From contig VBGP01000023.1 in the NCBI GenBank assembly GCA_005880795.1, positions 1 through 40,878 on the forward strand: a stretch of 40,878 bases of DNA, in the 5' to 3' direction. The notes beneath the pieces were generated by a model. That model worked only from the letters and a program-made list of their open reading frames with translations, did no database searches and had not been told where the DNA came from. Each line of letters starts with the position of its first letter. Position 1 is the stretch's first letter. The stretch comes from Chloroflexota bacterium. GTDB taxonomy: Bacteria; Chloroflexota; Dormibacteria; Dormibacterales; Dormibacteraceae. A program made the translations under genes and the position numbers. Shown in pieces: positions 985 to 13,635 of the stretch.

Positions 985-1124
985 TCGTACCGCAACGCCG
1001 GTGGTAAACGGTGATATCTGGTGGCATTCGGCGACACGGAACGAATTCAGATCCCCGTTTTCGAACGGGCGGCAGCGATCTGTTAACCGCAAGGTTCAGG
1101 GTTCGAATCCCTGTCCCGGAGCCA
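985..1124 (+). repeat. direct repeat copy A ending in tRNA-like 3' half
   Basis: This copy is collinear, without gaps, with the sequence starting at 7301, at an offset of exactly 6316 bp. By hand I count about 20 mismatches over the first 96 positions. A block of 39 identical bases then runs from GAACGGGCGG through the tRNA-like anticodon region to GGTTCAGGG. Within copy A, CCCGTT-TTCG-AACGGG (about 1055-1070) can form a hairpin with a UUCG-type loop. The repeat and its flanks fill the 366-bp stretch between the crotonase gene and the pentapeptide protein. I see no protein gene in that stretch, only reading frames created by the repeat on both strands. Confidence 0.8.
1080..1124 (+). pseudogene. 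3' half of a tRNA-Asn-like sequence (att-site-like)
   Basis: The 45 bases read as the 3' portion of a tRNA with anticodon GTT. They comprise the loop CTGTTAA, the 3' stem strand CCGC, a variable loop, a perfect T arm (CAGGG-TTCGAAT-CCCTG), the acceptor strand TCCCGGA, a discriminator G and CCA. No matching TCCGGGA 5' acceptor strand lies upstream, so it is not a working tRNA gene as it stands. Upstream bases GAACGGGCGG would fit a tRNA-Asn D-arm/anticodon-stem region if seven bases (CAGCGAT) were removed. Integrases commonly recombine in anticodon loops and regenerate tRNA 3' halves, so an attachment-site remnant is the simplest reading. Confidence 0.6.
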
Positions 1125-1275
1125 ATTTCGAATACGATTCGCTCCTGTAGGACCGATTGCGGGCTCGGCTGATAGCAACCGGATAGCAACCCGGCGGAGA
1201 CCACTCTGCAATCAACGCTCCGCATCTCACTACCTTTCAGTGCTTCGGAGGTTCGGGGCTAGTCTCAACTATCTG

Positions 1276-2109
1276 ATGTCAGACCTTAGATTGGGCACGT
1301 CGATCTGCAAGAGGCTGAACGGCGGGGCGATTGAAAGTGAGTCGCTCGTTGGAGCGCCCTTGGGTGCCTGCCGAAGGCTGTCCCGATCGTCAATCACCTC
1401 CTGCAGTCTTCAGCGAGCAGAGTTAGACGGTCTACTGTGGACGCACTCCCGCTTTACGAGCGTCGACTTCAGCCATGCCTCTATGCGGGACTTCACAGAC
1501 CGAGCAAATCTCTTTCGCGACTGCCGTTTTGTCAGAACCAATCTCAACCAAGCCACATTCGGTTTCGAGGGCAGCCAGTTCATCGATTGCAGCTTCGAGC
1601 GCTCCCTCGCCACCACCACAGCCTTCGTGAGACCCCTCTTCGTTAGATGCATGTTCGCTGGCAACTTGCGCGATGTCGATTTTGAGGCCAGTTCGTTCTC
1701 GGAGTGCAAGTTCGTCGGCCGCATTGAAGGTGGTTGGTTTAGGAATGGATACCAACATGCGAGCCTGAATAACGAGTTTGGGACACCCGCGACAAACCCC
1801 ATGAAACGCGTCGATTTTCGAGAGGCGATCCTGTGGGGCGTGGCCTTCAGTGGCAATGTAGAACTCTCGTCGGTCAGTTTGCCCGCAGAACACTTCCTTG
1901 TTGATGAATGGCCTGAACGAGTCAAGCGAGTTGCCGAGTTGGGTCGCAACTATCCAGAATTGCGCTCGGCATCAGACCGCTTTCTCAAAGTCTTCGGTCC
2001 TGGCGCTACACGCCAGCACCAATACATTGTTTACAAAGACTTTTTGGCGCATGTCATCGGCGAGCAAGCACTGCAACCAGTGCTCGCCAGTCTGCTCGAT
2101 CAGAATTAG
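1276..2109 (+). CDS. pentapeptide-repeat-like protein
   Basis: A protein of about 277 aa. Its N-terminal two thirds carry an imperfect A(D/N)LXX / F-x-x-C-x-F pentapeptide pattern, for example AELDG, ANLFRDCRF, TNLNQATF, QFIDCSFE and SSFSECKFVG. This suggests a right-handed quadrilateral beta-helix. The last 80 residues (from about VDEWPERVKRV) are predicted helical, with no repeat and no signal peptide, so the protein is probably cytosolic. Function is unknown; such folds occur in topoisomerase-protecting proteins and many uncharacterised ones. I prefer ATG 1276, but an in-frame GTG at 1240 would add 12 residues; neither has a clear Shine-Dalgarno. GC content looks lower than in flanking genes and the gene lies inside the repeat-bounded segment, consistent with acquisition. 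Confidence 0.65.
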   Translation: MSDLRLGTSICKRLNGGAIESESLVGAPLGACRRLSRSSITSCSLQRAELDGLLWTHSRFTSVDFSHASMRDFTDRANLFRDCRFVRTNLNQATFGFEGSQFIDCSFERSLATTTAFVRPLFVRCMFAGNLRDVDFEASSFSECKFVGRIEGGWFRNGYQHASLNNEFGTPATNPMKRVDFREAILWGVAFSGNVELSSVSLPAEHFLVDEWPERVKRVAELGRNYPELRSASDRFLKVFGPGATRQHQYIVYKDFLAHVIGEQALQPVLASLLDQN

Positions 2110-2131
2110 GTCAGCTTCGGAGTAAACCTTG

Positions 2132-2151
2132 GCGTCCCACTGGCGGGACGC
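2132..2151 (+). terminator. hairpin after the pentapeptide gene
   Basis: A perfect 7-bp stem, GCGTCCC / GGGACGC, with a 6-base loop lies 22 bp past the stop codon and is followed by ATTCTTC. The U-tract is weak, so it may be an imperfect intrinsic terminator or only a hairpin. Confidence 0.4.
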
Positions 2152-2312
2152 ATTCTTCAGCAAGGGTTTCGGAGTGGGCTGGAAGGTTGTACTGGCTATC
2201 GTGGCGAATGGGATCACGATCGCGTTCTGGTCCGCGAATCGATTACCAATGGGGACTTCGCGCGTTTAGGCGCAGGAAATCCGCTGGCGACCTGTTAGAT
2301 TCTGCGACCCGC

Positions 2313-5300
2313 ATGAAGCAGTTGGTTACCGCGCGGATCGTCGGAGCTGCGGCCATCGTTGCCCTTGCGGCAGCGCTTCTGCCCAGTGCCGGGAATGCGC
2401 AGACCACCGTCACCGCGAACTGGGTCCAATCCTCGGCGCGAGGACCTTCGGCGCGGGCAGCCGCATCAATGGCCTACGACCCGACCCGCCAGCGAACCGT
2501 GCTGTTCGGCGGTTATGACGGCGGAAACTACCTCTCCGACATGTGGCAGTTCGACAGCGGCTCCTGGACACAGCTCCAGGTCTCAGGCCCTCCGGGGCGC
2601 TATCTGGCCCCAATGGTCTACGACTCGGCGCGGGGTGTCATGGTCCTGTTCGGCGGTTACAACATGGTCGGGATCCTCGGCGACACCTGGGAATGGAACG
2701 GCTCGACCTGGACCCGCAACTTCACCCTGCATACACCGCCGGCCAGGGACTGGACATCAATGGCCTATGACTCCGCCCGCCATGTGACGGTGCTGTTCGG
2801 GGGCGCGCTCAACGCCGGCTTTTACAACGACACGTGGCAGTACGATGGCACCGACTGGACGCAAGTCATTACCGCACACGCGCCATCCGCGCGCAGGGGC
2901 ACCGCGTTAGCCTTCGACTCCGCACGAGGCGTGACCGTTCTGTTCGGTGGCCAGGGAGACATCACTCTCAACGACACGTGGGAGTTCAACGGCACTGACT
3001 GGAACCAGATCGCGGCTGCCAATCCTCCGTTCCGCCGGCTATGGCATTCGATGGCATACGACCCCAACCTCGGCGGCACTGTCATGTTCGGCGGTGCTCT
3101 GGACCCGAACTCACCGCAAAACGACACGTGGCTCTACGACGGGACCGCCTGGCAGCAAATAGCGCCCGTGCTCGGCCTCAATCCGAGGTTCTGGGCGTCA
3201 GCGGCATACGACTCCGCGCATGACGACTTTGTGATGTTCGGCGGAGCTGCGAATGCAATGCCGAGTCCCGTCTACAGCGACACGTGGGTGCTGCGGGGCA
3301 TCACCACATCGCCGCTCGACTGGGCTCAGGCGAACCCGTCGTTGGCGCCGAGCGCTCGCGTCTGGTCCCAGATGGACTACGACTCGGTGCGGGGCGTCAG
3401 CGTCCTGTTCGGGGGTAGCAGCGACTCCGGTGGGGGCAACCTCCATGACACGTGGGAGTGGGATGGAGCGCGCTGGACGCAGGTGGCACCCACCGCCTCT
3501 CCACCGGCGGTCGCCGGCGGAATGATGGCTTACGACAGCTCGCGCGGTATGTCGGTGTTGTTCGGAGGATCCGGAAGCGCCGGGAACAGCTCCTCGACGT
3601 GGGAGTGGGACGGCACGAACTGGACGCAGAAAGGCCCGGCGACGTCACCCCCGGCGCGAGTCTGGGCCGCGATGACCTATGACTCCGCTCGAGGTCGCAT
3701 AGTGCTGTTCGGCGGCGACGGTCCGAGCGGTTTGCTGGCAGACACGTGGACGTACGACGGCACCACCTGGACGCAGATGAGTCCGGCCAGTGCGCCCTCG
3801 CCGCGTGACGGGTCCGCCCTGGCTTTCGATCCCTCGCGTGGCCGGGCCGTGCTCTTCGGTGGTCACGACTCGAACGGCCGCCTGGCCGACACCTGGGAGT
3901 GGGACGGTGCCAACTGGATGCAGATTCCCACGACCACCGCGCCGCACGCTCGATTCTGGGAATCGATCGCATTCGACGCACAGCGGGGCAAGACGGTCCT
4001 GTTCGGCGGGGACCACTTCCAGCCGAACGACCTCGGTGAGTCCAACGACACGTGGGAGTGGGACGGCGCACAGTGGACACACGACTTTCCGGCCGCCGCG
4101 CCCCCGATTCGCTCTGGCCAGTCGATGGCGTACGACGCAATCCGCGGACGGATTGTCGTGTTCGGCGGATGGAACGCAGCCACGTCGCCGGCGACGATCT
4201 ACGGGGACACATGGGAGCTCGGCAACGGAATCCAGACTCCTCCGGGTACGCCGAGCGCGACTCTTAACGTGTTCGGCCTCGGAACGAACTTCGGCAGCGT
4301 GAACGTCGGCTCGACCGCCAACGGCGTTGCGGCCTTCATGTTGTCGAGCACCGGCACCGGCCCGCTGGCGGTCAACTCGATCGCATTGGCCGGGCCGAGT
4401 GATTTTGCCCTCAATACGGACTGCCCCATGAACGGGGATCCGCTGCCTGCGGGCTCGTACTGCATGGCGATCGTTTCGTTCACGCCGACCGCCGCCGGCC
4501 CGCGGACCGCGAGCATCTCCTTCAACTACAACGCGCCCGGCGGCAGCCAGACGTTCCAGCTCCAGGGAACGGGAGTCGTGCATCCGACCACGCTGACGGT
4601 CTCGCCGGCGACGGCCGTGTTCAAGGGAGGCGCGATCATCAGCGCATCGCTCCAGGTCGACGGCAAACCGTTCGCCGGCCAACCGGTCACGCTGCGCCTG
4701 CTAAGCGGCCCCGGCACGACGACCCAGACCGACTCGTCGGGTGTCGCTGTATGGTTCGGCGTCAGCTTCGCCGGCATCCACGCGGGCAGCTATCCGACAG
4801 GAATCCAGGCGAGCTTCGCTGGCAGCGCGGCCTACGCGCCCAGCTCCGCGACAGCGGCCCTGGTGATCACGCAGCCCGTTACGACCGCTTACACCGGCGA
4901 GTTCTACATCGCCGACACAACTGCCGGTCACATCACGGTCCAGGTCGACCAGCGGACGCCCGCCAGCGACCCCCAGTTCATCGACTACGCGAACACCGCG
5001 GTCTGGGCGCGGTTCACGGTGATCGGGCCGGCGAGCTCAGCGGACTTGTATGCAAAGGTCACGGACGCGCCCAGCTGGTCGACCACCGGGCTTGGGGTGG
5101 CCACAGCGTCCCAGCCCGCGCTGGCCGACGGCGGATACACCGTCGTCGCCACGCTGGTCGACGGCCCATCCATTACGTCGCCTAGCAGCGCCGTATCGAG
5201 CGACGACTCCCGCGCCGGCCTTGTGTCGTCCCCCACCAAGGGCGGGTACATGAGCGGCGGTGGCGCCATCGCGACCGACCCGTCCGCCAACACGAGCGAC

Positions 5301-5684
5301 AAGCATGGCTATTTCTCGCTCCAGATGAAGCCCGGCAAGCAGCCGGTCGGGAACCTGGTCTACATCTACCGCGTCCGAATGGACGTGGGCGGCGGCAACC
5401 TGCGCGACGTGGACGTTTGGGTCAACAGCACGTCGATCACCACGCTCAGCGGCGGCTCTGCGACCGGCCAGTTTGCCGTCGAGTACGTCGATGCTGTGAC
5501 AGGCCAGCGCTACACGGCGCTCGAGTTCTCCGGTGGAACGTTCAAGCTCAACGTGGTCGGTGCGACAAGTAAATCGCCAGCGAAGTTCGGATTGGTGCTA
5601 AAGGATCCCAATAGCACACTGTTCCATTCCACCGGCAGCGCGCCGGCGCCAGTCGTGCTCGGCCTGCTCGTCAGCACACTGTAG
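2313..5684 (+). CDS. secreted multi-kelch beta-propeller protein with Ig-like domains
   Basis: This is a 1123-aa exported protein. The chosen ATG 2313 gives a clear signal peptide (MKQLVTARIVGAAAIVALAA, ending near SAGNAQ); a start 42 codons upstream would bury it. From about residue 60 to 640 there are twelve kelch-type repeats of roughly 47-58 aa, each with V-x-LFGG, then DTWEWDG-x-x-WTQ and an A-x-AYDS-x-RG turn, suggesting one or two propellers. Next come an ASPM/SPD-2/Hydin-like beta domain (about 648-754) and an Ig-like domain (about 755-856). The C-terminal part of about 260 aa was not recognised. No catalytic motif or cell-wall anchor was seen. A surface or matrix binding role is inferred from architecture alone. 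Confidence 0.85.
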   Translation: MKQLVTARIVGAAAIVALAAALLPSAGNAQTTVTANWVQSSARGPSARAAASMAYDPTRQRTVLFGGYDGGNYLSDMWQFDSGSWTQLQVSGPPGRYLAPMVYDSARGVMVLFGGYNMVGILGDTWEWNGSTWTRNFTLHTPPARDWTSMAYDSARHVTVLFGGALNAGFYNDTWQYDGTDWTQVITAHAPSARRGTALAFDSARGVTVLFGGQGDITLNDTWEFNGTDWNQIAAANPPFRRLWHSMAYDPNLGGTVMFGGALDPNSPQNDTWLYDGTAWQQIAPVLGLNPRFWASAAYDSAHDDFVMFGGAANAMPSPVYSDTWVLRGITTSPLDWAQANPSLAPSARVWSQMDYDSVRGVSVLFGGSSDSGGGNLHDTWEWDGARWTQVAPTASPPAVAGGMMAYDSSRGMSVLFGGSGSAGNSSSTWEWDGTNWTQKGPATSPPARVWAAMTYDSARGRIVLFGGDGPSGLLADTWTYDGTTWTQMSPASAPSPRDGSALAFDPSRGRAVLFGGHDSNGRLADTWEWDGANWMQIPTTTAPHARFWESIAFDAQRGKTVLFGGDHFQPNDLGESNDTWEWDGAQWTHDFPAAAPPIRSGQSMAYDAIRGRIVVFGGWNAATSPATIYGDTWELGNGIQTPPGTPSATLNVFGLGTNFGSVNVGSTANGVAAFMLSSTGTGPLAVNSIALAGPSDFALNTDCPMNGDPLPAGSYCMAIVSFTPTAAGPRTASISFNYNAPGGSQTFQLQGTGVVHPTTLTVSPATAVFKGGAIISASLQVDGKPFAGQPVTLRLLSGPGTTTQTDSSGVAVWFGVSFAGIHAGSYPTGIQASFAGSAAYAPSSATAALVITQPVTTAYTGEFYIADTTAGHITVQVDQRTPASDPQFIDYANTAVWARFTVIGPASSADLYAKVTDAPSWSTTGLGVATASQPALADGGYTVVATLVDGPSITSPSSAVSSDDSRAGLVSSPTKGGYMSGGGAIATDPSANTSDKHGYFSLQMKPGKQPVGNLVYIYRVRMDVGGGNLRDVDVWVNSTSITTLSGGSATGQFAVEYVDAVTGQRYTALEFSGGTFKLNVVGATSKSPAKFGLVLKDPNSTLFHSTGSAPAPVVLGLLVSTL

Positions 5685-5774
5685 AACCGCCGCGTCTACA
5701 GTTATCAGTCGTCGCGGACGCGTCAAACGGTCACATTCCAGCCTTGCAGATCCGCACTTTGGGCGGCCTGCGAA

Positions 5775-6347
5775 TCACCGCAGCCGGCGAAGGCACGAAT
5801 ACACCACCAGGTCGTGCCAGCCGCCGTGCCTGTACTGGGCGCCTCGGAGCACTCCCTCTCTAGCGAACCCTGCATTCTCGAGCGCACGTTGCTCAGCTAG
5901 GTTGTCAATGTCGGTCATTGCCTCGATCCGGTTGACCCGAGACGTGGCGAATAGGTGGTCGGCAAGAACGTGCTGGGCCTCACTGCCATAGCCGTGGCCT
6001 CTTGCCTCCGGTATCAGGTTGATTCCGATGTTCCATGCAACCGACTCTGGATTGGGGCCATATCGCACCTCGCGCCAGCCGACCGTACCGATTGGCTTGC
6101 GGGTCGTTTCCAACTCCACGATTAGGGTTCCACTCTGCGCACTGACCAGTCCGGTCTTTTGAATACGTCCCCTAACTGGCCCCAATTGCACGCCAAAGTC
6201 GTTGAATTCGCCGACGTACTCGGTCGAATGCCATAGTTCGAGAAGTTCCGCGTCATCTTCGGTCACTCGTCGTAGGCGCACCTTGTCGCCACCGATCGCC
6301 GGATCATCGTTCGTTTCCACAGTTCGATTGTTCCAGAGCCCCGCCAC
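5775..6347 (-). CDS. GNAT N-acetyltransferase, RimJ/RimL type
   Basis: This 190-aa protein has a GNAT fold. The acetyl-CoA pyrophosphate-binding loop is RGHGYGSEAQ (residues 116-125, the Q/R-x-x-G-x-G/A pattern). It is preceded by the conserved beta strand WNIGINLIPEARG and followed by the terminal NxxxxRxLENAGF-like segment (NLAEQRALENAGFAREG). This arrangement is typical of RimJ/RimL-like enzymes that acetylate protein N-termini or small amines with acetyl-CoA. Start is GTG; the first 20 residues are not conserved-looking, so a shorter form is possible. The gene stands alone on the minus strand, converging on the kelch gene, and has a lower GC content than neighbours. The substrate cannot be predicted. 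Confidence 0.85.
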   Translation of the reverse strand: MAGLWNNRTVETNDDPAIGGDKVRLRRVTEDDAELLELWHSTEYVGEFNDFGVQLGPVRGRIQKTGLVSAQSGTLIVELETTRKPIGTVGWREVRYGPNPESVAWNIGINLIPEARGHGYGSEAQHVLADHLFATSRVNRIEAMTDIDNLAEQRALENAGFAREGVLRGAQYRHGGWHDLVVYSCLRRLR

Positions 6348-6621
6348 GCATCAGCGTGGGTTGGCGCGGTTGATCAGACAATGCTGAAGTCCTTCCGAAG
6401 CTCGTCCGCACGCGAAAGGCGCCCGGTCTGCACACACGCCGCGGCAAGCGTCGCGCCATTGCCTCATCGTCAGTGCGCGAGGGCTAGCGACTCGCGACGA
6501 TGCGATCGACAGCATGCTGCTGATAACCCAGTGCTACCGATAACTGAGCCGTATCGCGACCTTCCGACTCGGGCTGAGTTCTCGCAACCATTTTTTCGGA
6601 ACTCGGCTTACTAGGCGCCGG

Positions 6622-7266
6622 TCAGAAAACCCCGGTACGCGGCGCCTCAATCGGAGCTGACGCCGACCAGAGCCTAAGCCCGACGACAGCGAACCAGATG
6701 ACTCGCATGCCGGCAAAGGCATATGCGATCACCACTCCCTTGACCACGTTTGCGCCCGCGAAAGCCAGCACACTCACCAGCGCCGTGCCAAACGAAAAGA
6801 GGTCATAGCCCCGCCAGAAGGAGTTACTCCGGAAGCGAAGCCCTAGCAGCACATAGCCGACCAGCGTGCCCAAGCTGGCGATGATGAAGGCCAGCGCGTG
6901 GACCAAGCCATGGAACGTGTGCGGCGGGGAGCTCACAGGCAGGTCGGTGGGGAAGAGACCGGCCACGATCGTGCATGCACCGACGATGCTGATACAGATC
7001 GGCCCGGCGGCCGAGCCTCCAGGGATGCCCTGGTGTAGGGCGTATGCGAAGCCGATCACCAGCACGCCTAGCAAGATGAAGTTGAGCGTTTGCATCCAGC
7101 CCAGAGGACCCAGCGCGTTCGCGCTCGGGAAACTGCTTTTCATCGGGTCGAAGCCGATCGAGAGCAAGAAGCTGCGCTGGAGACTCTCCTCAATTACGAG
7201 CACGACCTGGAAGAGAAGCGGGGCTAGGCTGCCCGCAAGGGCCAGCAAGCGCAGGCTCCGTGCCAT
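6622..7266 (-). CDS. DUF998-family multipass membrane protein
   Basis: A 214-aa integral membrane protein with about six hydrophobic segments. The arrangement matches DUF998 proteins: a first TM followed by an extracytoplasmic loop (SFPSANALGPLGWMQ), then GWMQTLNFILLGVLVIGFAY, a FPTD loop, and an HTFHGLVHALAFIIASLG segment with two conserved histidines. Family function is not established. Start is ATG with no Shine-Dalgarno. A TAGACT -10-like hexamer lies about 9 bp upstream of the start, which would give a very short leader. The 274 bp between this gene and the acetyltransferase hold nothing I recognise. The gene is the last one before repeat copy B. Confidence 0.8.
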   Translation of the reverse strand: MARSLRLLALAGSLAPLLFQVVLVIEESLQRSFLLSIGFDPMKSSFPSANALGPLGWMQTLNFILLGVLVIGFAYALHQGIPGGSAAGPICISIVGACTIVAGLFPTDLPVSSPPHTFHGLVHALAFIIASLGTLVGYVLLGLRFRSNSFWRGYDLFSFGTALVSVLAFAGANVVKGVVIAYAFAGMRVIWFAVVGLRLWSASAPIEAPRTGVF

Positions 7267-7300
7267 AACGTCCGCAGTCTAGTCAGAGAGCCTTTGGTAT

Positions 7301-7430
7301 TCGTACAGCAACGCCGGTGACAAACGGTGATATCTCGCGGCACCTAGCGGCACGCCGTGAATTGAGACCGCCAGTTTTGAACGGGCGGCAGCGATCTGTT
7401 AACCGCAAGGTTCAGGGCTCGAACCCAGTC
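7301..7430 (+). repeat. direct repeat copy B with degenerate tRNA-like 3' half
   Basis: Second copy of the element at 985, gap-free over at least 130 bp. The anticodon-loop core CTGTTAACCGC starts at 7396, but the T arm is broken (CAGGG-CTCGAA-CCCAG, one mispair) and the acceptor TCCCGGA-GCCA is replaced by unrelated sequence. Copy A therefore keeps the intact tRNA end and copy B does not, the asymmetry expected of two ends of an integrated element or of a decayed dispersed repeat. The 259 bp between the DUF998 gene and the next small gene hold only this repeat. Confidence 0.78.
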
Positions 7431-7525
7431 ACGTTTCGCCAGTTCGTGACACTGGCAGGGCTCGCCCTCCAGACCAATACAGCACTCGCCTCTTTGACAT
7501 AAGAAGGTCCAAGCGCACTCCAAAG

Positions 7526-7799: not shown

Positions 7800-8102
7800 T
7801 CAGCCCTGGACTGCGACCGGATCGAGGGTCGCTGGGCTGAAATCTTCAAGGAGACCGCGGATACGCCCAACCCGGTCCTGAAAGCCGGCGCTTCCGCGCC
7901 AGGCGGCGATCGTTTGCTCATCGGGCCAGGGTCCGAAGCTGACAAAGCGGCTCGGCTGCTCGCGGTCGCGAAGGAGGGTGCCGCCAGGCTCAGCGCCCTG
8001 GACTTCTCGCATGGTCCAGTCAGCCATCTCCTGCCAAGCAGTGATGAAGTCGTCCTCACTACCGGGCTTCACTTGCCAGATCCCCATCGTGTAAACGCTC
8101 AC
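7800..8102 (-). CDS. antibiotic biosynthesis monooxygenase (ABM)-fold protein
   Basis: A 100-aa protein matching the dimeric alpha+beta barrel ABM family. It opens with YTMGIWQVKPGSEDDF, followed by a helix (ITAWQEMADWTM), a strand with TLLRDREQPSRFVSF and a helix containing IAAWRGS. Family members include quinol-forming monooxygenases, heme-degrading enzymes and many uncharacterised small proteins acting on hydrophobic substrates without cofactors. Start is GTG. The gene is convergent with the small CCHC protein (10 bp apart) and divergent from the zinc-ribbon gene. There are no diagnostic residues for a particular reaction, so the substrate stays open. Confidence 0.75.
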   Translation of the reverse strand: MSVYTMGIWQVKPGSEDDFITAWQEMADWTMREVQGAEPGGTLLRDREQPSRFVSFGPWPDEQTIAAWRGSAGFQDRVGRIRGLLEDFSPATLDPVAVQG

Positions 8103-8179
8103 CGGCAGATTCTAGGAGCCCGGTAGGGGTCGCAGCCTGCACCGGAGCTATCAGTAGCTGCCGGTTCACAATAGTTGCG

Positions 8180-8404
8180 ATGGGCCGCAATGCCCGAAAG
8201 CGAGCCGAGGAGCGCGAGGAACACCGACATCATGGCGTACCGGGCGAGGAGCCCGAACAAGCTCTCGAAGTGCCCAAGAAGTGCCCTCGCTGCGGATCAA
8301 CTGACCTCGTTGTAGGGCGCTACATGGCAGGGGTCACGACGGGCATTGACGTCATTTGCGGCAACTGCAATTGGCAAGGGATGATCCAGCCCGGCATCTG
8401 GTAG
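8180..8404 (+). CDS. small zinc-ribbon protein
   Basis: A 74-aa protein. The N-terminal 30 residues are highly charged (RKRAEEREEHRHH), followed by a compact zinc ribbon: Cys35-x2-Cys38 in KKCPRCGSTDLV and Cys60-x2-Cys63 in ICGNCNWQG. All four ligands are intact. No catalytic domain is attached. Proteins of this size and layout are usually nucleic-acid or protein-binding accessory factors, but no specific role can be assigned. The ATG lacks a Shine-Dalgarno. It stands 67 bp upstream of the large secreted hydrolase gene on the same strand and might be cotranscribed with it. Confidence 0.7.
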   Translation: MGRNARKRAEEREEHRHHGVPGEEPEQALEVPKKCPRCGSTDLVVGRYMAGVTTGIDVICGNCNWQGMIQPGIW

Positions 8405-8471: not shown

Positions 8472-10742
8472 GTGCTGGGAAGGGGCACTCGGTTCGCGTT
8501 TGTTGGCGTTCTCGCCTTGATGCTCAACGTCGCACCCGGTTCAATCAAGGTCGGCAATGCCGCCGGCGTGGCCAGCCCTGGTTATGCGGTCACCGACTTC
8601 GCGACCGGTTTCAACACATTTCCGCCTTACGGACCGGGACCTGTCGGGCTCGCATTCGATTCGCAAGGCAATCTGTACTCAACCGGCTACCTGGGTGGAA
8701 ATCTCTACAAGTTTCCGCCCACCGGCAACACGTTCGAAAGCTCGGTGCTCAGCAATGTCGGCTATCGCGTGACCGGCCTTGCGTTCGACAAAGGAGGCCG
8801 GCTATTTCTCGCTCGGCAAGGCGAGGGTGACATAGCGGAGCTCGATCCAAGCACGGGAAGCATCATCGGCACAGTGGCCAGTGGGATTTGCGGGCCCAAC
8901 GCAGTTGCAGTTGATCCGTTGACGAATGACCTCTTCATCTCGTCCTGCGGCACCGTGCAGCGCCTGCACGGATATCAGGGACAGCCGGTCACGCCCACCC
9001 TGTACACGTCGAACGTTGCAGTCGACGGCCTGACTTTTGCGCCCGATGGAACGCTTTATGGCGCGGGTGGAGGGCCGATCTACCGCATCACGGGAACGTC
9101 CGACGTCGCGCCCGGGACGCCGACTGTCCTCGCGAACGTCCCTCGCGGCGACGGAATAGCGCTCCTGGCACCTCAGCCTGGACGGCCGATCACGCAGCTC
9201 GTGGTCAACACCAACAACACGAACGGCTTCATCTACGACGGAGAAATCGACCTCGTCGACTTCTCTTCCAGCCCAGCAACGATCACACCGATCGTCACCG
9301 GCGGAAACCGTGGTGACTTTGTCGCCGTCGGGCCCGACAAATGCCTCTACGCGACGCAGTCCGACGAGATCGAAAAGGTCACGGCGGCGGACGGAAGCTG
9401 CCCATTCATACCGACCGGCGTCGGGACACCAAGACCGAATCCGCCGCAGCATGTCACCAACATCGGGACGGCGGCCGGAAATGTGCTGGTTGCGTGGCAG
9501 GCCCCGCAGCCTGATGGTGCGGTTATCGACCATTACGAGGTCCAACAACTCGCCCTTGATGGCACGCCGATTCGATTCATTCGGACCGTTTCAGCGACGG
9601 CCCCGCTTGAGGCTCTCATCGGGAGCCTCAATCTGTGCAGCTACTACTTCTACGGGGTCCTGGCGGTAGGGGCTGACGGTCAACGATCCAACCTCACGCA
9701 GGCAACCACTCGAGCGTTCACGCAGGCGAGTCCTGCATCACCCCCTCCTACCGTCACCATCCTGATTCAGGGCGTCAACAGTCATGACAGAGCCTCGACA
9801 TTCAATCCCCTGACTGTTTACGACTACTGCACCAGTCTCGACGGCGCGAATCCAAACGACATCGGCACAACGTACCCGCCCGCGTTGGCGGACATGCAGA
9901 GTTACTGGGACCAGGACGGCGAACCAGCTCATCAGCCGGCCTACGGTGCTGGTAACAGGTTGATCGACTCGTTGGCGAGTCACGGTGGCATCGTCCTGCC
10001 CTTCAGTTACAAAGGCGCCACGCTTACGGGAAATCCGACTGCGCCAACTTTTACATTCCACGCATATACGGGCAGTGATGTGGCGAACACGTTCCCACAA
10101 GTCGCGGCAAAGACTTTGGATGACGAGATCACGTCGATCAACAAGGTCTGGCCTTCCACCAAGATCGTCGTCGTGGGGCACTCCAATGGGGGCGCTATCG
10201 CCGAGCTCTGGTGGATCTTCTACGGATCGCAGAATGCCCATGGCGTGGTGCAGGCGTTTTCGCTTGACTCGCCGCTGAACGGCGTCGCCAACGCCGACTG
10301 CGTCAATGGCAACCCCATCTGCTCGTTCCTGGGCGTTGGCTCAGCGCTTGGGATCACCTACCAGGCGGTCTGGGCGGGCCAGGCCCAGCTGGATCCCGGT
10401 TACGTAGCGCTCCAGGCTCGTAGCCCGCTGTTTACGCCGGTGGGTACGGTCGGCGACCCCGTCTACGACCCCCCCGACCAGGGAGCGGCACACAATCCCG
10501 CCGGCATCAAGCAGATTGGGATCATTTCGCAGATCTGGTGGTCAGAGCCGGGATGCATGAATTCCGGATTCGACCTGTCGTCTTCCGCGTGCATTCCCGT
10601 CGGCAACTACTTCATCGACCCGTGTGGGCCGTTGAATGACGGCACGCCGCCTCTATTTGGAGTCCCAGGCAGCTTCTGGCTGCATGGGGTCGTTGAGAAT
10701 TGCCCCGGTGTGATCGCAAAGATCATGACCTACGCAGGCTGA
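8472..10742 (+). CDS. secreted beta-propeller / FN3 / alpha-beta hydrolase fusion
   Basis: This 756-aa exported protein starts at GTG with a signal sequence (FAFVGVLALMLN, cleavage near GNAAGV). Residues about 35-315 form an NHL/SMP-30-like propeller with repeated GLAFDSQGNLYS-type motifs. Residues about 320-416 form a fibronectin type III domain (NVLVAWQAPQPDGAVIDHYE). Residues about 425-756 look like an alpha/beta-hydrolase: VTILIQGVNSH at the start and VVVGHSNGGAIAELWW with the nucleophile-elbow Ser571. The Asp and His of a triad cannot be placed with certainty. The fold resembles secreted lipases or esterases, with the propeller and FN3 parts as likely adhesion or substrate-binding modules. 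The substrate is unknown. Confidence 0.82.
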   Translation: MLGRGTRFAFVGVLALMLNVAPGSIKVGNAAGVASPGYAVTDFATGFNTFPPYGPGPVGLAFDSQGNLYSTGYLGGNLYKFPPTGNTFESSVLSNVGYRVTGLAFDKGGRLFLARQGEGDIAELDPSTGSIIGTVASGICGPNAVAVDPLTNDLFISSCGTVQRLHGYQGQPVTPTLYTSNVAVDGLTFAPDGTLYGAGGGPIYRITGTSDVAPGTPTVLANVPRGDGIALLAPQPGRPITQLVVNTNNTNGFIYDGEIDLVDFSSSPATITPIVTGGNRGDFVAVGPDKCLYATQSDEIEKVTAADGSCPFIPTGVGTPRPNPPQHVTNIGTAAGNVLVAWQAPQPDGAVIDHYEVQQLALDGTPIRFIRTVSATAPLEALIGSLNLCSYYFYGVLAVGADGQRSNLTQATTRAFTQASPASPPPTVTILIQGVNSHDRASTFNPLTVYDYCTSLDGANPNDIGTTYPPALADMQSYWDQDGEPAHQPAYGAGNRLIDSLASHGGIVLPFSYKGATLTGNPTAPTFTFHAYTGSDVANTFPQVAAKTLDDEITSINKVWPSTKIVVVGHSNGGAIAELWWIFYGSQNAHGVVQAFSLDSPLNGVANADCVNGNPICSFLGVGSALGITYQAVWAGQAQLDPGYVALQARSPLFTPVGTVGDPVYDPPDQGAAHNPAGIKQIGIISQIWWSEPGCMNSGFDLSSSACIPVGNYFIDPCGPLNDGTPPLFGVPGSFWLHGVVENCPGVIAKIMTYAG

Positions 10743-10778: not shown

Positions 10779-11690
10779 TCAGCCGCGTTTCGGTCGTTCT
10801 GATTCCGATACTCGTGCCAGGCGGTTGATCTTCTCGCCATCCACGTCGATGGCGAAAACTTGCTCCATCACAACGGCCCAACCGTGGATGAAGTACCTCC
10901 ATCCATCCTCGACGCGCAGGTGCCGGCCGGCTTGTTGTTGTAGCGCTTGGTGGAGAAAGTCCAGCTCCCCTCGGTAATTCAGCTCCCAGACATAGCCTCG
11001 CGCGGGAAAAAGGGCAGCCTCGGTGATCGGCGAACCCGGCGTGTCCTTGCCCATCCCCGTGGCGTTGATGACCAGCGATCCGGCCGGCAAATCGCCGATC
11101 AAGCGGTCGTTGGTGCGCGGATCGCTGTTCTCGATGTAGCGGACTGAAGTGCCCGAGGCGACCTTTGCGTGAACGTCCCGCATGGCCTCGAGCCTGCCCG
11201 TCGTTCGATTGACGACCGTGATGTGCGAAGCCGATCGTTGTTGCATCAGGTGCACCGTGATTGCGACGGCCGACCCGCCTGCGCCCAGGCACAGAACCTC
11301 GCCCCTCTCCGCTAAGGGATAGAACTCAGCGAGCGCGCGGCCGCACGAGATCGGGTCCGTGGCGAACGCCCATAGCTGGCCGTTGCGTTTCGCCAGGCAG
11401 GATGTCTCCCCACAGAGCTGCGCGTAGTCGTCGACCACGTCGAAGAGGTCGCGACAGGCTTCGAAGACGTCGATCTTGTGTGTCGTGACGAGACCGCCCA
11501 GCTCGTGCTCATCGGTCTTGATCCGGGCGACCACCTCTCTATAGCGGTCGGGTGGGGCGTGGATAGGCAGGTCGCAGCCCACCAGTCGCACGTCGCCCAG
11601 ACCAAGCTCTGTGGTCCACGCCGGAAACAACCGCGTCGCGGCGGACTGGCCGGTGCTGACGCCGATGAAGGTGAATGTCTGCAGCGTCAG
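10779..11690 (-). CDS. shikimate dehydrogenase-like oxidoreductase
   Basis: Length is about 303 aa with a CTG start, or 283 aa from TTG 11630. The protein has a shikimate-dehydrogenase-type N-terminal substrate domain (LGGLVTTHKIDVFE with the catalytic-type Lys, then CGETSCLAKRNG) and a Rossmann domain (VLCLGAGGSAVAITVHL, VVNRTTGRLEAM, VINATGMGKD). Reading upstream of TTG 11630 gives TFTFIGVSTGQSAATRLFPAW, which supplies the missing first strand and the S-x-S-like substrate loop, so the longer form is probably right. The only initiation-type codons there are CTG 11690, overlapping the permease stop as CTGA, and CTG 11684. Its place at the end of a sugar-transport operon argues for oxidation of a sugar-derived polyol or acid and not for aromatic biosynthesis. 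Confidence 0.78.
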   Translation of the reverse strand: MTLQTFTFIGVSTGQSAATRLFPAWTTELGLGDVRLVGCDLPIHAPPDRYREVVARIKTDEHELGGLVTTHKIDVFEACRDLFDVVDDYAQLCGETSCLAKRNGQLWAFATDPISCGRALAEFYPLAERGEVLCLGAGGSAVAITVHLMQQRSASHITVVNRTTGRLEAMRDVHAKVASGTSVRYIENSDPRTNDRLIGDLPAGSLVINATGMGKDTPGSPITEAALFPARGYVWELNYRGELDFLHQALQQQAGRHLRVEDGWRYFIHGWAVVMEQVFAIDVDGEKINRLARVSESERPKRG

Positions 11691-12646: not shown

Positions 12647-13635
12647 GCGCGCCTCAACACAACACCGAGCCCGCCGATCATGACCACGATCACGATGAGG
12701 ACCCCCTGGATCATCTGGCCGTAGTTGGGGTCGATGCCCAGGTAGATGAGCACCGCTGGGATCAGCGACAGGATGTACGCCGCAGCGACCGGGCCCAGCA
12801 TGCCGCCGCGCCCGCCCGCCAGGCTGACCCCGCCAAGCACGATGGCGGAGACTCCGCTCAAGGTGTAATAGGTCCCCGCGAGGGGTGAGCCGACGCCCGT
12901 GGTCATCGACAAAGCCAGGCCTCCGCACGCGGCGAAGAATCCGCCGACCGCGTAAGCGAGCACCCGACTCAAGCCGAGGTTCACCCCCGAACGAAACGCG
13001 GCGTTGCGGTCGCTCCCCACGGCGTAAATCGCCAGGCCAGCGCGGCTGCGGCGCAGCGGGATCCAGACCAGCGGTATCACCAGGAGCAACAGCAGCGCGT
13101 TGGGAATCCACGCCGACAGCGTCGATCCCTGCGCGAGGTTTTGAAAGTCGAACGGGACGCCCGGCGTAGGTTTGGCCAGCACCAGCAAGGCCAACCCGGC
13201 CCAGATGAAAGACGTGGCCAGCGTGATCACGATGTCCGGCACGCGCGTCAGGACGATGATCGCGCCGTTGAGTGCCCCCGCAAGGGTGACTTCGAGCAGG
13301 ACGATCAGCGCGACGATCAGCGAGTAGCCGAGGTCGTGGCCGAGCATGGCGCGCAGCGCAAGCACATTGGCAAGCGCCATCAACGGGCCGACTGACAGGT
13401 CGATGCCTCCGCTGAGGACGACTATCGTTTGTGCGGTCGCCGCGAATGCAAGCGGAAGCGCCGCCAGCGTGAGGGTGTTCCACTCGAATGCCCCGTAGTC
13501 AGGTTTGATGATGAGAGTGACAACCATCAGGACCGCGAAAAGCGCGTAGACCGCGATCGTCCAGCCGTAGCGCCTGGCCGCCCGGCCGAAACGAATGCCA
13601 GACGTCCGCGGCGCAGCCGCCGCAGCAGTCGCCAC
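12643..13635 (-). CDS. sugar ABC transporter permease (RbsC-like), first copy
   Basis: A 330-aa permease with a short Ala-rich cytoplasmic N-terminus and about ten TM segments. It carries TIVVLSGGIDLSVGPLMAL and IVLGGVSLAGGRGG, the two hallmark loops of RbsC-type permeases. Its GTG shares one base with the TAG stop of the ATPase gene, and its stop overlaps the next permease start by 4 nt, so the three membrane and ATPase genes are tightly coupled. Two distinct permeases imply a heterodimeric channel, as in several Rbs/Xyl-type systems that carry duplicated permease genes. Substrate is a sugar or sugar-like compound; sequence does not say which. Confidence 0.92.
   Translation of the reverse strand: MATAAAAAPRTSGIRFGRAARRYGWTIAVYALFAVLMVVTLIIKPDYGAFEWNTLTLAALPLAFAATAQTIVVLSGGIDLSVGPLMALANVLALRAMLGHDLGYSLIVALIVLLEVTLAGALNGAIIVLTRVPDIVITLATSFIWAGLALLVLAKPTPGVPFDFQNLAQGSTLSAWIPNALLLLLVIPLVWIPLRRSRAGLAIYAVGSDRNAAFRSGVNLGLSRVLAYAVGGFFAACGGLALSMTTGVGSPLAGTYYTLSGVSAIVLGGVSLAGGRGGMLGPVAAAYILSLIPAVLIYLGIDPNYGQMIQGVLIVIVVMIGGLGVVLRRA

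Follow-up and report, generated by a model that had tools for sequence, protein, structure and literature searches.

The question raised by this locus is whether a 6.3-kb piece of DNA that lies between two partial copies of an asparagine transfer RNA (tRNA-Asn) gene is a mobile element and, if so, how it could move when it encodes no integrase. The window, i.e. the whole stretch of DNA analyzed, is the 40,878-nt contig VBGP01000023.1 from a Candidatus Dormibacterota metagenome-assembled genome (MAG) from soil (3.22 Mb in 217 contigs, 95.5% complete). An initial annotation of the sequence had left the choice between a decayed or trans-mobilized element and two independent insertions of a small repeat, and the first two turned out to be the right pair of alternatives. 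We consider it likely that positions 1080-7395 of the window are a cis-mobilizable, integrase-less cassette that belongs to an accretion array at tRNA-Asn and is moved by the integrases of co-resident elements. The genome-wide statistics given below rest on searches of genomes: 61 genomes were searched for the repeat/attachment site (att) family, 70 sites were aligned, and a profile of the arm was built from 42 full copies.

The repeat finder placed the two copies (copy A, 985-1110; copy B, 7301-7426) in a single ungapped direct-repeat family of 126 nt with 83% identity and an offset of exactly 6316 bp, in agreement with the collinear arrangement first described. Both contain the predicted run of 39 identical bases, GAACGGGCGGCAGCGATCTGTTAACCGCAAGGTTCAGGG, which passes through the anticodon loop, and copy B was recovered with E=1.8e-31 when copy A served as the BLAST query against the genome, so their similarity is not due to chance. 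In the relative G001, whose tRNA-Asn(GTT) gene is intact, nt 32-76 of that gene match the 45 nt at 1080-1124 of copy A without a single difference, while the T arm and CCA are gone from copy B past about 7416, which bears out the assignment to a tRNA-Asn 3' half with an intact T arm, acceptor, and CCA in copy A alone. ARAGORN found no complete tRNA in the window, and no Rfam match to a known RNA family was obtained there, which was to be expected of copies that hold half genes. In the alignment of 70 sites, similarity to tRNA-Asn begins exactly at the anticodon loop (CTGTTAA) and extends to the CCA. To the left of this core, every full copy has in common an arm of ~95 nt (TCGTACAGCAACGCCGGTGGCAAACGG..GGCGGCACTCAGCGGCACTCAGCGAATTC) that is absent from the tRNA gene and that is putative integrase arm DNA rather than tRNA. 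Both copies are right-hand (attR-type) attachment sites, each composed of this arm plus tRNA-Asn from the anticodon loop to the CCA, and neither is the tRNA locus itself. Given the arm-core-arm layout of the sites, the arm of copy A is to be assigned to the element on its left, of which it is the right end, and the element under study is 1080-7395. The earlier view of the repeats as integrative-element ends at a tRNA is thus supported by the att layout, with its limits refined. The core pattern was unmatched in IMG/VR, where a viral origin was sought.

The 3' part of the tRNA is present as a direct repeat at both ends of the element (cores at 1080 and 7396), and the element has kept both attL and attR (P arm, core, and P' arm sites), with partial decay of the copy B core. 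For the P' arm sites, 66 copies were scanned for a tandem pair of 9-mers with a period of 10-11, located 44-62 nt past the CCA. Such pairs were present in 22 of the 66 copies, mostly at 44-47 nt, versus 4/198 downstream and 25/660 random windows (2-4% of control windows) and 19/1320 shuffles, while the left ends of the elements otherwise differ in sequence from one another. An arm, a core, and phased arm sites constitute the attP layout expected for a tyrosine integrase with an arm-binding domain, and the element ends appear to form a putative attachment site of this type, consisting of the P arm, the anticodon-loop core, the tRNA 3' half, and the P' arm sites.

Matches to the att family occurred in 36 of the 61 genomes and 15 of the 26 genera, some of them consisting of the tRNA alone; most of the short matches retrieved from relatives (query 106-151) are intact tRNA-Asn(GTT) genes. 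The family is seen in several families of the class, and the matching contigs place it in Candidatus Dormibacterota. Five full copies and several partial ones are found in the window's own genome (G000), and up to 13 matches in a single relative. On every multi-site contig examined, all neighboring site pairs have identical orientation. In relatives, an intact tRNA-Asn stands at the start of the array, with the first site 0.9 kb further on in G018 and 17.5 kb further on in G001; the gene order upstream of this tRNA is common to eight relatives and stops at the tRNA, and downstream almost only the integrase module is common. Pairwise distances were compared among 57 copies with 500 label shuffles. 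The tRNA 3' halves had a distance of 0.059 within genomes vs. 0.113 between genomes, which none of the 500 shuffles reached, and the arms had distances of 0.304 vs. 0.324 (2/500 shuffles). The tRNA halves are therefore of host origin, and host-close tRNA halves with hardly host-close arms are predicted by mobile ends joined to the host tRNA, not by a repeat amplified whole.

Segments with a site at each end (closed segments; n=26, 169 kb in total) range from 871 bp to 17.5 kb and hold whole open reading frames (ORFs). Their cargo includes acyl-CoA synthetase, enoyl-CoA hydratase, LuxR and ECF regulators, extracellular contractile injection system (eCIS)-core, RTX/FG-GAP, BNR, and TPR proteins, and no cargo pair among their 169 ORFs was >40% identical. 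No integration or transfer genes were found within the window element. The integrase domain PF00589 is absent from this element, as the initial annotation had stated, and from all 26 closed segments, and in tblastn these segments matched neither the integrase nor the two small membrane proteins, VirD4, or the relaxase. The sole module-like signal was a 388-aa protein with two weak matches (E=0.002) in one segment. Relatives, by contrast, have a single integrase family (59-70% identity) that adjoins tRNA-Asn in G003, G004, G013, and G022, and also adjoins an att in G022. Three such elements encode, after the integrase, first a membrane protein and a small membrane protein, then a VirD4-type coupling protein (PF02534, E 1e-40 to 1e-36) and a relaxase with weak, MobP-type matches. 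The distance from the tRNA to the next site is 63 kb in G013 and 73 kb in G022.

Several comparisons carry signs of exchange at the sites. The hydratase gene that precedes copy A also lies beside an att, whether complete or partial, in G001, G003, G007, and G058, and the DNA beyond differs; the hydratase-att junction itself recurs in G000, G007, and G058 (a broken arm, then a second att), again with different DNA past the att. When L077 from the window's genome was compared with L182, a contig from a different bin with 98-99.5% identity, the flanks matched on both sides; the two differ over 190-296 bp to the left of the att core and are identical to its right. A further module, N, is found past the intact tRNA-Asn in G016 after an insert of ~190 bp and past an att in G000 (94% identity), which is the order that accretion would give. 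Module N was also considered as the ancestral right flank of tRNA-Asn, and this was dropped because it occurs in other contexts as well (G004 and G006), so only the comparison of tRNA-N with att-N was kept. Window position 7956 as a strain breakpoint relative to L174 was likewise dropped due to an N gap in L174. Near-identical Dormibacterota contigs were encountered in bins of other taxa, among them a Verrucomicrobia MAG and different families and genera (L182 in the Verrucomicrobia MAG, L174, L087, and G058, as well as contigs of G018 vs. G033); these are probably mis-binned, which bears on any claim of horizontal transfer.

We propose that the integrases of larger elements at tRNA-Asn would bind the arms and core of the cassette, with crossover in the anticodon loop of tRNA-Asn. 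The cassette would be excised as a circle, or carried along with a neighbor, and would then reinsert, either at tRNA-Asn or into a resident att. The window element may by now be fixed, because its right tRNA half (copy B) has decayed. Several points weigh against a trans-mobilized cassette. Mobility is inferred, as no circular form or mobilization was observed. The further copies that the initial annotation anticipated were found, and the intact tRNA-Asn it also looked for was not found in the assembly of the window's genome, so the array cannot be tied to a tRNA there. This genome has a single tyrosine-recombinase (PF00589) match, on another contig (C9); as the tRNA-Asn locus is absent from the assembly, an integrase adjoining it could be missing too. 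An empty site, the other comparison by which the initial annotation might have been confirmed, was not found for the window segment among its genus relatives, in none of which were the flanks joined, because the gene order left of 10.78 kb is different in every relative; for the G026 copies, comparison with the congener G035 failed as the flanks were too rearranged. Some copies lie far from any tRNA, and those of G026 are on two contigs of >400 kb (G026:C26:387167-390349; G026:C29:50906, 96593), too far apart for one short array, which implies either rearrangement or a second integration locus. Rearrangement has a part in shaping these regions as well, since gene order is highly plastic everywhere.

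It is possible, though we doubt it, that the segments are instead decayed remnants of old integrative and conjugative elements (ICEs) or integrative mobilizable elements (IMEs) at tRNA-Asn, which have lost their integrase and transfer genes, are fixed, and are no longer mobilized by anything. The loss of the T arm and CCA from copy B is in keeping with this, as are the loss of arm DNA from some copies (62 bp of the arm in L085 are deleted in the near-identical strain L184) and the lost end of the tRNA half at G000:C101. Against this, and apart from the two E=0.002 matches, all 26 of 26 closed segments are free even of remnants of the module of integrase, two membrane proteins, VirD4, and relaxase, while most have long att sites; moreover, hardly any cargo is common to the segments, and a switch at the att core separates near-identical strains. 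It is unlikely that array members are reshuffled through homologous recombination of the ~140-bp repeats instead of by an integrase. RecA-type exchange would also yield one upstream gene with differing downstream DNA, as at the hydratase gene, but it does not account for the arm sites, for the break in synteny at tRNA-Asn, or for where the tRNA halves came from, and the point of exchange between L077 and L182 is at the core instead of being spread across the repeat, although a single case is weak evidence. Finally, a small dispersed, tRNA-derived repeat, similar to a miniature inverted-repeat transposable element or short interspersed nuclear element, that flanks ordinary chromosomal DNA with immobile segments in between would account for copies on many contigs, some of them tens to hundreds of kb from tRNA-Asn, but this and the two independent insertions first envisaged are very improbable, given the spread over several families, the uniform orientation of neighbors, the arm sites that flank the core left and right, the adjacent cognate integrases, the whole ORFs in the segments, and the within- and between-genome distances, on which the model was rejected since the tRNA halves are host-matched and the arms hardly so.

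The features of the window element and its left neighbor are listed in Table 1. The pentapeptide, kelch, GNAT, and DUF998 domain matches agree with the accessory cargo originally named, and the two genes said to be lower in guanine-plus-cytosine content (GC) are indeed below the reference value of 0.659 for window 10.8-40.9 kb. To the right of the element, a stretch of ~225 bp (window 8170-8404) is 76-81% conserved in G002, G007, G009, and G011, where the rest of the query was unmatched.

Table 1. Coordinates of the cassette, its attachment sites, and adjacent features in the window
Feature	Position	Strand	Evidence
Enoyl-CoA hydratase gene, last gene of the upstream neighbor segment	91..909	+	PF00378 E=2.9e-43
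P arm, right end of the upstream element (copy A), short direct repeats GGYGGYAMW..	985..1079	+	42-copy profile; 5 full copies in this genome
Copy A tRNA-Asn 3' half, from the anticodon loop (CTGTTAA) through CCA; core of the element's left attachment site	1080..1124	+	Identity to G001 tRNA-Asn
P' arm-type sites at the element's left end, two 11-bp repeats GATAGCAACCG GATAGCAACCC, 46 nt past CCA	1171..1192	+	22/66 copies similar
Element, core to core, 6316 bp	1080..7395	+	Core CTGTTAACCGC at 1080 and 7396
Pentapeptide-repeat protein, cargo, GC 0.549	1240..2109	+	PF00805 E=8.9e-10
Kelch-repeat protein, 1165 aa, cargo	2187..5684	+	PF24681 E=1.7e-54, PF13415 E=2.5e-39
GNAT acetyltransferase, cargo, GC 0.593	5775..6347	-	PF13302 E=6.2e-18
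DUF998 membrane protein, cargo	6622..7266	-	PF06197 E=1.5e-16
P arm, right end of the element (copy B)	7301..7395	+	Profile positions 5-144 matched at 7295-7433
Copy B tRNA-Asn 3' half, degraded: anticodon part still intact, but T arm and acceptor/CCA gone	7396..7430	+	

Other arrangements were observed at tRNA genes in these genomes. On the - strand of L081 (G000:C168), an intact tRNA-Lys(CTT) gene (12757-12832) is followed by two tRNA-Lys 3' halves (11557-11590 and 10986-11019) that are displaced and share its orientation. The intervening segments measure 1166 and 537 bp, and TGACAGC-type arm repeats of their own are present. This is a second, independent cassette array without an integrase in the window's genome. 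In L206 (G025:C23:14000-33000), a second tRNA-Asn 3' end without a P arm lies 3.4 kb past the intact gene (7138-7188 and 10531-10571), and probably marks an element that uses this tRNA with a different integrase. In several genomes, an IS481-like transposase is located directly past the CCA of tRNA-Asn or of an att (L047 and L036, with short remnants in L068 and L092); in L047 it occupies 194-1360 on the - strand (rve domains, LZ_Tnp_IS481), with TTCGGCTGATG repeats at its left end. These insertions look as though the insertion sequence favors the tRNA 3' end, and in G016 a repeat of CCGGAGCCA comes after the insert.

Elements of this general kind are already known. Tandem accretion involving integrase-less cis-mobilizable elements (CIMEs) has been described for ICEs and IMEs (PMC5704250), and the CIMEs similarly have an att at both ends, lack integration and transfer genes, and lie in tandem with integrase-encoding relatives of the same specificity; here, the elements that share the target tRNA are the integrase-VirD4-relaxase elements of the relatives. 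The segments described here differ in that most consist of cargo alone and contain no remnants of the module, and in their high copy number across several genera of one candidate phylum. The ssrA genomic islands of Dehalococcoides, 15 without and 16 with an integration module (PMC3146451), are also arranged in tandem downstream of one RNA gene, with the 3' repeat of that gene as boundaries, but they depend upon a serine recombinase (DsiB) and transfer-messenger RNA rather than a PF00589 tyrosine integrase and the anticodon loop of tRNA-Asn. The additive flexible genomic islands at tRNA-Lys in Methylopumilus consist of units of 330 bp-42 kb with 1-63 genes, bounded by recurring 20-bp repeats of the tRNA 3' end (PMC10872708), whereas the boundaries here also keep the conserved arm of ~95 nt, and many have P' arm sites. 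Crossover in the anticodon loop is one standard class of tRNA islands (class A of Islander; PMC4383910), which have in common with our arrays a displaced 3' tRNA fragment and a tyrosine integrase in autonomous members; Islander, however, requires an integrase in every array member and would miss segments that have none. Integrons are a resemblance only: they too have same-orientation arrays of unrelated cargo with a common recombination site, but neither IntI nor a fixed attI was found here, and the arm/core/arm sites on a tRNA contrast with attC. The integrase compared scored 45.7 of 265 bits, far under the integron integrase cut-off.

What is new is therefore the lineage and the full arm architecture, and what stands out is that this architecture persists at integrase-less boundaries, together with the near absence of an element backbone in 26/26 segments. 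In a soil phylum that is uncultivated, the att profile marks the boundaries of mobile genes to the exact base, even where there is no integrase and where integrase-based island finders would miss such cassettes. A broader and rather unlikely extension is an integron-like system of gene capture on tRNA genes in Dormibacterota, with the array at tRNA-Lys as a parallel, in which the integrase of mobilizable elements resident at tRNA-Asn would act in trans on a large pool of cargo-only arm-core-arm cassettes that are continually added and exchanged within arrays. If it is true that the cassettes move in trans, this would amount to integron-like gene acquisition built from ordinary tRNA integrases.

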